From Mastigias papua (Eukaryota > Cnidaria > Scyphozoa > Rhizostomeae > Mastigiidae), in assembly GCA_964019165.1 (NCBI GenBank), contig OZ025278.1, forward strand, positions 12,244,962-12,308,961: a stretch of 64,000 nucleotides of DNA. Direction: 5' to 3'. Positions 31,908-63,431 of this stretch are shown piece by piece. The translations under genes and the position numbers were made by a program. The notes beneath the pieces were generated by a model, which was not told the origin of the DNA, made no database searches, and was given only the letters and a program-made list of their open reading frames with translations. Position 1 is the first letter of the stretch. Every line of letters begins with the position of its first letter.

Positions 31908-32692
31908 CTACCGCACTGGGAATGCTTTTCTTCGTTGGTCTTCGCTCTTTTTTCTAGTTTTTTTGCTTATCCATTTCATTGGCTGTAAAGGTGTCGATTT
32001 CTTCTCTTCAAGTTCCAAAATCCCGTGAATTGGCATATTCGATGACATGAAATTACGGACCGATTCTGAATCGGAGTCCGAATGCCGCCTATGACGTCGA
32101 TATGCTGGAGGCACGAAATCAAAAGCGTAGTCATACGCGCTCATGCCAAATACTTTGCCGTAGCTTAGTCCCGACTGCTCTTGACCGTTGGTTTCCGGAA
32201 GTTCGTAGTTATAACCAAAATTTGGATTATAATTTGGCACAGTTACATTCGACAATTCCATGTATGGAGCTGTTTCTGTTTGTTGTACTTCAATAGCCGT
32301 CGCCGACACCACCTCTGGCGGTTCCTCACTCCGATAAGACCCATAATCAATCATAACCTTCCCCCCAGAAACGGCGATATGCGGTGAACGCAATGCCACT
32401 CGTGCTTCCTTTTCAGGTAGCGGTGCGTCAAATCCAGCTGCGATATTCTCTCCAGATTTATTTGCTTGAAGTTCTTTTGATTTTTCCGGGCCATGTCGAA
32501 CTGGCTCCTTGATCTTGGAATCCAAACTCGGTTTAGCTGGCCTTGGATCTCTTCTCGGCGTTTCAGACAGATTACTATCAGTCCTCAACGTGTCTTCTTC
32601 GGTCCAGATGTTCTTATCTCCCACAGAAGATTGCAACACTTTGGCAGCAGTATGCATTTGTTTTTGCTGTCTCAGTACAGCTAGGAGTTTCT
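31908..32692 (-). other. Last exon: 261-residue disordered C-terminal tail
   Basis: It begins [19 protein letters not shown], a short helix directly after MH2. Then come a Pro/Lys/Asp-rich segment, a Tyr-rich stretch ([28 protein letters not shown]), the cluster [14 protein letters not shown] (basic then Ser-Asp, a typical casein kinase 2 target) and a basic end ([14 protein letters not shown]). TAG at 31908-31910. No domain is recognised; the features suggest regulated binding of SH2/SH3-type or membrane partners, which is inference. Confidence 0.85.
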
Positions 32693-62600: not shown

Positions 62601-63431
62601 AAATGTTCCCTAATACGGCCACCAAATAAAATCGTTCATATAGCCACCTATAAGTTTCCGTCCTTATACATTGGTTTTGCATCAAGAATCAAAATAGCTT
62701 AAAGAACTGTCTCCCTTTAGCATGAACTTCGTCTTTATTCTTATTGTGAAGTTCCTAGCCAGACAACATTTCCTTCACAGGGTTCCTACATCTACTAATT
62801 TCATCAACTTGCTTCAAAAATTCCTACTAAATTATAGCAAAGATTTCTTCACCAAAAGAATGCCCAGGTAGCATCTGGACATTGCATCTTTTTGTTACCT
62901 TAAGGACGTCATTGAAAAATTCAACCTTCCTTTAGCATACGAAAGTAAAGAATCAATTTGAACAAATAACATATGGGGATAATCCAAATATCTCTACTAG
63001 GTCATCAAAAAGTTTAACGATCTGCCAACAGTGTCGGAGATTTCAGTCGCTAAATCAAAACGATAGCGATCATGTTAGTGATATTGCCACAAAAAAGCAA
63101 TGTTCTAACATCTAAGACAGTAATTGAAAACTGTAAACAATTTGTAGATATAATAAACAGTATAAAATACCCATTGTAGTGTGAATGAAACCTTGGCAAG
63201 CACCCAAAGTCAACAATACAGCATGAAACATGAACCGAGGATATGGCGGAGATAGTCGCCAAATAACTTACATTCTCCATACGCTTGAAAGCAAAATGAA
63301 ATCTGTATGATAAACAGCCCGGGATAAGTTCCATACCTGTGATTATCCATTGTTCCCAGGTACAGTTGGTCCAATTCTTCTTGTGCCATTCCATAGAACA
63401 AGTAATAGAATATATGGAAGTTGCGTCCCTC
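31908..63431 (-). CDS. Unconventional myosin with a C-terminal MH2 (Smad-type) domain, 5' end outside the window
   Basis: Twenty-six minus-strand exons: 63431-63337, 61390-61279, 60345-60195, 59786-59715, 59180-59039, 58610-58466, 57824-57744, 56556-56392, 55637-55562, 55284-55215, 54315-54262, 54010-53935, 53011-52956, 51570-51421, 50560-50449, 47132-47051, 43517-43426, 40253-40170, 38827-38717, 37409-37207, 35534-35462, 34680-34606, 34380-34315, 33890-33789, 33295-33202, 32692-31908. Total 3324 nt, 1107 residues plus stop, every phase consistent. Residues 1-525 are the motor from [15 protein letters not shown] on; 519-560 converter and one IQ motif; 560-642 a basic helical tail; 675-846 an MH2 domain; 847-1107 a disordered C-tail. 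The P-loop part is off the right edge. Known myosins move on actin and MH2 binds phosphorylated receptors or Smads, so an actin motor for an MH2-bound cargo is the natural inference. The alternative is two genes split at 37.4-38.7 kb. Confidence 0.8.
33374..33521. repeat. (TG)n/(CA)n microsatellite
   Basis: About 148 bp of TG repeats with a few CG and TA interruptions and a GTGCG tail, 79 bp from the MH2 exon ending region at 33295. Long open frames of Val/Cys or His/Thr repeats through it are artefacts. Confidence 0.95.
34925..35290. repeat. (ATGAT)n pentanucleotide satellite
   Basis: Pure GATAT/ATGAT repeats at about 35043-35172 with decayed copies on both sides, in the intron between the exons at 34606-34680 and 35462-35534. 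Frames give Ser-Tyr-His-Ile repeats only. Confidence 0.95.
35855..36130. repeat. Imperfect (ATCA)n/(CAAT)n array
   Basis: ATCAATCAATCAATCA core near 35890-35920 with degenerate CCAATCAA units up to about 36130, in the 1.67-kb intron within the MH2 coding region. Confidence 0.85.
38460..39150. repeat. Dispersed repeat with a relative at 60640-61190
   Basis: Around 38540-38695 (ATGAGTTTGTTTTCGCTT…TTTAAGCCTCCTGTTTC) matches 61015-61180 (ATGAGTTTGTTTCCATTT…TTTGAGCTTCACGTTTC). Around 38960-39080 (TTCTTTCTGGGAACCTAAGC, GGGCCTATATAATG) matches 60655-60750 (TTCCTTTCTGGGAATCTAAG, TGGCCTATAAAATT). A third relative of the first part lies at 54778-54875. All lie in introns of the myosin-MH2 gene, which may have grown by such insertions. 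Exon 38717-38827 sits inside this stretch. Confidence 0.5.
39355..39809. mobile_element. MITE with GCACGCTTTTTTTATAAGG ends, copy 1
   Basis: Inverted ends GCACGCTTTTTTTATAAGG (39355) and CTTATAAAAAAGTGTGC (to 39809). The body is rich in AAGGAACTTTT. A full-length relative lies at 46307-46744 with collinear interior (CATGTAGAA…CCGAAATATTTAAA; CTTTTAGTACTAGAATTTGAT). No transposase. Confidence 0.75.
39941..40045. repeat. 16-bp tandem array (GGGGCGTAGAGAAAGA)
   Basis: Five to six tandem copies of GGGGCGTAGAGAAAGA with a shorter degenerate tail, 125 bp from the exon at 40170-40253. Confidence 0.85.
40254..43425. other. Myosin-MH2 intron, 3.2 kb
   Basis: It holds a repeat fragment rich in AAACTTTCTTAA-type motifs at about 41632-41885 (relatives near 48924-49012 and 55822-56170), a short GATTTAGAT-type array at 41460-41560, and fragments with AAATAAGCGGGG at about 42120. 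No exon with family resemblance or RNA gene is seen. Confidence 0.5.
46307..46744. mobile_element. MITE with ACACGCTTT…TTATAAGRAAC ends, copy 2
   Basis: ACACGCTTTCATTTTATAAG (46307) and the inverse CTTATAAAACAAAAAGCGTG ending about 46744 bound 438 bp collinear with the element at 39355-39809. Both copies lie in introns of the same gene and in the same orientation. Confidence 0.75.
47567..47977. repeat. Large near-perfect palindrome around a (TA)n core
   Basis: The left arm (about 47567-47673, starting GTGAATATATGCGAACATTT) is repeated inverted as the right arm (about 47864-47977, ending CATATATTCAC). The arms are about 107-114 bp and identical apart from one 7-bp indel (TTTCAT versus TTTCATTTTTCAT). 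Between them is about 190 bp of pure TA. Just outside the left arm lies a compound array (ATACAT, AC, AT, GT) at 47462-47566. The whole would fold into a very stable hairpin. It lies in the intron between exons 47051-47132 and 50449-50560. Confidence 0.9.
49770..50336. mobile_element. MITE of the ACCGTAAAT family, interrupted by a second MITE
   Basis: Ends ACCGTAAATACTCGAGTTAG (49770) and GGCCAATTCGAGCATTTACG (ending GGT at 50336) are inverted. The interior (CTATCTGACAAATGCC, ATTGAAAGAACAGT) matches the copy at 57420. It is split by the element at 49831-50150. Confidence 0.8.
49831..50150. mobile_element. 320-bp MITE nested inside the previous one, TA target site
   Basis: Inverted ends AAGCCTGGTTTCCATATAAT and GATCAAATGGAAACCAGGTT enclose many GACGATC motifs in both orientations (TCGTGACGATCGCCGCAGTC near the left end, GCGACTGCGACGATTGTGAC near the right). 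It is flanked by TA on both sides, as expected for Tc1/mariner-type insertion. A 78-codon open frame inside is not a gene. Confidence 0.75.
53069..53284. repeat. (TA)n microsatellite, about 215 bp
   Basis: Near-pure TA with ATACATACAT interruptions at about 53203 and 53271, lying 58 bp from the exon 52956-53011. Tyr-Ile repeat frames through it are artefacts. Confidence 0.95.
53706..53919. mobile_element. MITE related in style to the 49831 element (AAGTYTGG ends)
   Basis: AAGTTTGGCTTCCACATAAT at the left and TTATATAGAGACCAGACTT at the right are imperfect inverted ends. The body is made of GGATCGCT/AGCGATCC motifs in both orientations. It ends 15 bp before the loop-2 exon 53935-54010. No target duplication is clear. 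Confidence 0.6.
57420..57680. mobile_element. Degenerate copy of the GTAAATCCTCGAATTAGCCCCC MITE
   Basis: ACTGTTAATCCTCGAATTAG at the left and AGGGGGCTTATTCGAGAAGG near the right, with the shared interior (TTATCTGACATATGCC, CATTGAAAGAATAGT). It is uninterrupted and so shows the pre-insertion structure of the split copy at 49770. It lies next to exon 57744-57824. Confidence 0.65.
61391..63336. other. Myosin-MH2 intron, 1.9 kb
   Basis: AT-rich with no clear coding match; open frames such as the one at 62074-62340 on plus show no family motif. No RNA gene is seen. Confidence 0.4.

Follow-up and report, generated by a model that had tools for sequence, protein, structure and literature searches.

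RESULTS

A 26-exon gene joins a myosin motor to an MH2 domain

The window, that is, the whole 64,000-nucleotide stretch of Mastigias papua DNA analyzed here, carries on its minus strand a gene running from 63431 to 31908. We rebuilt its exons from the sequence, and 26 of them splice in one frame into a product of 1096 amino acids (aa). All 25 introns are bounded by GT and AG, their phases are mutually consistent, and the frame stays open up to a TAG stop at 31908-31910, in agreement with a first-pass annotation that had proposed 26 exons on one strand with such borders and phases. The gene spans 31.5 kb in the window, and its product is ordered as Myosin_head, IQ-like motif, basic linker, MH2, and a tail that ends in a conserved motif. 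Pfam placed Myosin_head at aa 2-512 of the spliced product (6.7e-119; profile positions 188-679 of 679) and MH2 at aa 663-827 (1.5e-23; profile positions 2-173 of 174).

The motor is encoded by exons 1 to 14; all exon coordinates below are on the minus strand and, unless otherwise indicated, come from the splice model. Exon 1 in the window (63337..63431), which is bounded by AG and GT and falls within the Pfam Myosin_head match, carries the GRNFHIF segment. It is followed by exons 2 (61279..61390), 3 (60195..60312), 4 (59715..59786), and 5 (59039..59180), by exon 6 (58466..58610) with a switch motif at 58556-58579, and by exons 7 (57744..57824), 8 (56392..56556), 9 (55562..55637), and 10 (55215..55284). 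Exons 11 (54262..54315) and 12 (53935..54010) contain variable surface loop, which in exon 11 we take from its position to be loop 2. Exon 13 (52956..53011) encodes HFIR, and exon 14 (51421..51570) encodes CIKAN and the start of the converter. The gene continues 5′ past position 64000. Because the first residue in the window aligns with approximately residue 177 of the 1276-aa protein of Rhopilema, about 176 aa of the motor, including the P-loop and switch I, would lie upstream of 64000.

The converter extends through exon 15 (50449..50560) and ends in exon 16 (47051..47132), which also encodes the first part of the IQ-like motif. The donor of exon 16, at 47051, was set by homologues, according to which a candidate 27th exon at 43955-43868 is spurious. 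The remainder of the motif (VQKMFRGRLAR) lies in exon 17 (43426..43517), together with lever or linker sequence. This intron-split motif was identified by eye; at values up to E = 1, the Pfam IQ model did not match the window product, and in two relatives it matched weakly, below the cut-off.

Exons 18 (40170..40253; linker) and 19 (38717..38827; basic linker) are in phase 0 on both sides. MH2 starts in exon 20 (37207..37409; splice model and Pfam) with WCRIDCYER and continues through exons 21 (35462..35534), 22 (34606..34680), 23 (34315..34380), 24 (33789..33890), and 25 (33202..33295); the latter encodes a short L3 loop, placed by alignment at 33242-33274, and PCWVEI. Exon 26 (31908..32692) encodes the C-terminal tail and the stop codon, with a conserved end motif at 31911-32171. 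The three junctions leading from the lever arm to MH2 (43426/40253, 40170/38827, and 38717/37409) span introns of 3172, 1342, and 1307 bases. All three are in phase 0 with no intervening stop in the spliced frame, which confirms the original reading of this region.

The fusion recurs in medusozoan relatives

A homology search with the MH2-containing part of the draft protein as a query yielded 8 matches among 855 candidates: three species-named proteins, one from EukProt, and four from contigs. The named relatives belong to the scyphozoan Rhopilema esculentum (myosin-IIIb-like), which is the nearest, and to Clytia hemisphaerica (myosin-IIIb-like) and Hydra vulgaris (unconventional myosin-IXb isoform X1). 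Both PF00063 and PF03166 are present in seven of the eight matches, and the eighth, P0007, begins in an IQ-like motif and continues into MH2. Open reading frames cross into MH2 in P0006 (1352 aa; longest contig, 4,235 bp), P0004 (879 aa; contig of 2,655 bp), and P0001 (689 aa; contig of 5,612 bp). As these contigs are too short for a gene that needs 31.5 kb and 25 introns, we infer that the three reading frames represent spliced transcripts. For relatives, these putative transcripts supply the evidence called for by the first-pass annotation, cDNA spanning the lever-MH2 junction.

Two further searches were conducted. With MH2 and the tail as a query, 11 matches were obtained among 5,797 candidates. 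MH2 was present in three of them (P0001, P0007, and P0014), and the other eight each covered part of the last exon in a single frame, one coming from the window itself. P0014, with 530 aa and contigs of at most 4,835 bp, comprises MH2 and the tail, the motor being absent from the record, and could be either a fragment or a product made without the motor. The third search used a circularly permuted alignment of the relatives, so that the MH2 half supplied the search words, and its scoring was confined to the 7,992 candidates with the most words in common. It returned 16 matches, of which 9 had MH2, all of them previously found, and 7 were myosins without MH2. In these searches, which are sensitive only to relatives sharing short words, MH2 was not found in any match whose name pointed to an anthozoan, sponge, choanoflagellate, or bilaterian, and no class-80 sequence was identified among the matches of the three; several matches carry no species name.

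Some features of the locus would also be expected of two adjacent genes misread as one, or of one gene that also gives an MH2-only product: the lever and MH2 exons are separated by introns of 1.3 to 3.2 kb, exon 20 contains an in-frame ATG, and P0014 has MH2 and the tail without a motor. Nevertheless, every junction phase fits, seven of the eight matches are single-protein fusions, and the eighth spans the IQ-like motif to MH2, making this explanation extremely improbable. The splice model and the seven relatives with both domains confirm, at the sequence level, the earlier claim that one gene encodes a myosin motor and MH2 in a single frame. Judging from these records, the fusion exceeds chance, since the same architecture is found as single proteins in several medusozoans.

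Features of the motor and conservation along the protein

The P-loop, switch I, and switch II motifs are recognizable in all five apparently full-length relatives, with deviations (GETCSGKT in P0002 and P0003; FCK for FGK in P0008). Pfam detected no protein kinase domain in any of these five proteins. The N-terminal kinase of class III is thus missing from these relatives and, by extension, probably from the window gene, whose own 5′ end is not in the window. When the motor was compared with the PDB, myosins VIIa, X, and II were at the top of the best 60 of 151 matches, which does not settle its class.

We then compared the regions of the protein for sequence identity. Between the window product and Rhopilema, identity is 82% for the motor, 83% for MH2, and 97% for the C-terminal motif; with Clytia, the values are 40%, 52%, and 45%. 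MH2 is more conserved than the motor in all seven relatives that hold motor sequence, with identities of 89% versus 88% (P0001), 83% versus 82% (P0002), 82% versus 69% (P0003), 55% versus 40% (P0004), 53% versus 43% (P0005), 55% versus 43% (P0006), and 52% versus 40% (P0008), the motor being only partial for P0001 and P0004. The margin is narrow in the two nearest relatives and clear in the four most distant. The linker (28 to 81% identity in the seven relatives) and the mid-tail (22 to 59%) are more variable. The conserved C-terminal motif gave no match in the PDB up to E = 1 and none in Pfam.

The MH2 domain most resembles that of Expansion

We compared a profile of nine MH2 domains with solved structures. 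The best match was 4r9p, with 72.9 bits, and the 24 Smad sequences scored no higher than 45.3. The window MH2 alone scored 69.1 bits on 4r9p and at most 36.2 on Smads. With Expansion as a query, Smads reached at most 27.8 bits, and Smad1 as a query gave 22 bits on Expansion. By match and title, 4r9p (RE28239p) is the MH2 domain of Drosophila Expansion described in PMC4388265.

The L3 loop is reported to have 17 residues in Smads and 11 in Expansion (PMC4388265). In our alignment, the loop of the myosin MH2 domains is six residues shorter than those of Smad1 and Smad2 and aligns without gaps to that of Expansion; the window MH2 therefore has the short, Expansion-type L3 and not the full-length loop of Smads. 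Neither the window product nor any of five relatives gave a Pfam match to MH1 up to E = 1. The profile match to 4r9p starts approximately 17 residues before the core Trp, and the two AlphaFold2 models of MH2 were too poor (mean pLDDT, 42.0 and 37.8) to show an N-alpha helix.

In an unrooted tree of MH2 domains, the Smads form one group (100%), and a split separates Expansion and the Smads from the myosin MH2s (93%), which does not tell the sister of Expansion. Expansion sits on a long branch between the Smads and the myosin MH2s. Its placement as a sister of Smad4 was rejected (AU p 0.004).

By match score, the window MH2 is of the Expansion/Rebuff type and nearer to Expansion than to Smads. 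The Expansion/Rebuff N-alpha-MH2 (4r9p) is the closest solved MH2, and both have the same L3 length. The two proteins differ in layout, as in Expansion MH2 is N-terminal, there is no motor, and the sole other recognized element described is a short conserved motif (PMC9894549). With Smads, the window MH2 shares the Pfam domain and motifs such as IGKG and PCW, but Smads also have MH1, a longer L3, and lower scores than Expansion against the myosin MH2s.

DISCUSSION

In the window product, Myosin_head precedes MH2 on a single polypeptide, which is the architecture of MH2-tailed myosins. The first-pass annotation knew of no described myosin with MH2. This was wrong, because such proteins are described in PMC3942036 and PMC5583752. 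In 2014, myosin III-like proteins with a C-terminal MH2 were reported in Salpingoeca rosetta and Oscarella carmela (PMC3942036); going by their description, they have the same architecture as the window protein. In 2017, myosins that have a C-terminal MH2 and are restricted to Ambulacraria were named class-80, and similarly built lophotrochozoan orphans were placed as sister to, or grouped with, class-36, the myosin-chitin synthases (PMC5583752). These class-80 and orphan proteins likewise have MH2 on the C-terminal side of the motor, in different phyla. The annelid and mollusc myosin-chitin synthases, which PMC3942036 assigned to the motor group of the MH2 myosins, have chitin synthase and not MH2 as a tail; in the published trees, the MH2 myosins fall within this motor group or next to it (PMC3942036, PMC5583752).

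In the open-licence literature, covered mostly through titles and the starts of abstracts, we found no report of a cnidarian MH2 myosin and no link between MH2 myosins and Expansion. The same literature yielded no functional study of MH2 myosins, which appear in the two surveys. The window gene and its medusozoan relatives are new cnidarian members of an architecture that is already known and little studied. They bring it into tractable animals such as Hydra and Clytia, and they bridge the published reports in choanoflagellates and sponges on the one hand and bilaterians on the other.

What might such a protein do? The motor is predicted to bind actin, and the single IQ-like site would make a short lever. 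The Expansion-type MH2 would serve as a protein-docking module, tying the actin-based motor to a membrane-bound, probably apical, complex. On the analogy with Expansion, we consider it reasonably likely that MH2 docks the motor on a membrane complex in this manner. The leading candidate partner is the machinery that exports chitin or apical matrix, possibly chitin synthase itself; this narrower proposal is speculative and, on balance, unlikely to be correct. It is put forward because Expansion and Rebuff are needed for chitin export by chitin synthase and because, in published trees, the MH2 myosins fall within or next to the motor group of the myosin-chitin synthases. A Drosophila study reports that the chitin synthase Kkv requires the N-alpha-MH2 of Exp/Reb in order to move chitin outside the cell and that this domain is dispensable for apical localization; its authors propose recruitment of further proteins in an apical complex by the domain (PMC9894549). 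Chitin has been detected in hydrozoan and scyphozoan medusae, Hydra, and Nematostella, and chitin synthase also occurs in Nematostella (PMC10216261). The presence of chitin in Nematostella, from which our searches yielded no recognizable MH2 myosin, counts against a tight link with chitin, as may the occurrence of class-80 in Ambulacraria. The Expansion-like MH2 suggests a concrete and testable partner system.

Class III myosin motors act in protrusions. The window protein might thus have a class III-like motor working in filopodia or the stereocilia of sensory cells, with an MH2 cargo at the actin bundle or membrane unrelated to chitin. Two of the three named relatives are called myosin-IIIb-like, and PMC3942036 places MH2 myosins in a myosin III-like group. 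However, none of the five apparently full-length relatives has the kinase domain, the Hydra protein bears the name myosin-IXb, the class label comes from database names and PMC3942036, and no result obtained here points to a cargo; we regard this role as possible, if somewhat doubtful. The MH2 domain could alternatively bind phosphorylated receptors or Smad complexes and couple TGF-beta-type signaling to actin, as the first-pass annotation had proposed. The domain is a genuine Pfam MH2, and its matches to the 24 Smad sequences are significant (best, 45.3 bits). Yet Expansion matches better, the L3 loop, like that of Expansion, lacks six residues present in Smad1 and Smad2, and Expansion and Rebuff are reported to act in chitin export, not in TGF-beta signaling (PMC4388265, PMC9894549). 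Because of its closeness to Expansion and its short L3, a Smad-type reading of phosphorylated receptors by the window MH2 is unlikely, and we judge the TGF-beta coupling as a whole to be quite improbable. As MH2 most resembles that of insect Expansion, the protein more likely acts at the cell surface, perhaps together with enzymes that make chitin, than in TGF-beta signaling.

Returning to the docking of the motor through an Expansion-type MH2, it is conceivable, albeit with low probability, that the MH2 myosins are ancient, motor-bearing relatives of Expansion and Rebuff, whose N-alpha-MH2 organizes chitin synthase at the apical membrane. If so, Expansion would be an MH2 myosin that lost its motor. 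Motor, MH2, and chitin synthase would then make up one functional set, occurring in three forms: the MH2 myosin, the myosin-chitin synthase, and Expansion with chitin synthase. PMC3942036 suggests that MH2 first appeared on myosins, and the Expansion-like character of the domain described here fits that idea of MH2 on a myosin before Smads.

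C-terminal motif and intronic repeat of the myosin gene

The MH2-tailed myosin ends in a C-terminal motif encoded at 31911-32171 on the minus strand and defined by columns invariant across the aligned relatives, which read SY..VF, DY.F, PP, RR.SDSD.ES..NF and QP..W. The motif was conserved in all nine of the nine relatives aligned. It had no match in Pfam, nor any in the PDB at E values up to 1.

Intron 15 of the same gene contains an inverted repeat (47647-47890) with a TA-repeat core, whose two 122-base arms are perfect, the repeat continuing imperfectly farther outward. This arrangement is hairpin- or MITE-like.

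Likely neighboring genes and open frames

Minus-strand exons at 318-9754, limits judged by eye, likely belong to a PRPF6-type splicing factor gene, as Pfam searches of the window detected PRP1_N at 9171-9278 (-) (4.4e-10) and TPR_14 at 2208-2354 (-) (3.4e-06). On the plus strand lie two large open frames, 15704-16759 and 20921-21646, both showing strong coding bias; neither has a Pfam match, and by eye they appear coiled-coil-like.

Plus-strand exons at 27872-29439 are likely those of an NSMCE2 (MMS21-type SUMO ligase) gene, based on zf-Nse at 29254-29439 (+) (1.4e-10; Pfam, window). For 27872-28234 the frame was chosen by eye, and its sole Pfam match was SNaCT12 (0.0058, under the cut-off). 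This NSMCE2-like gene and the minus-strand myosin gene are convergent.
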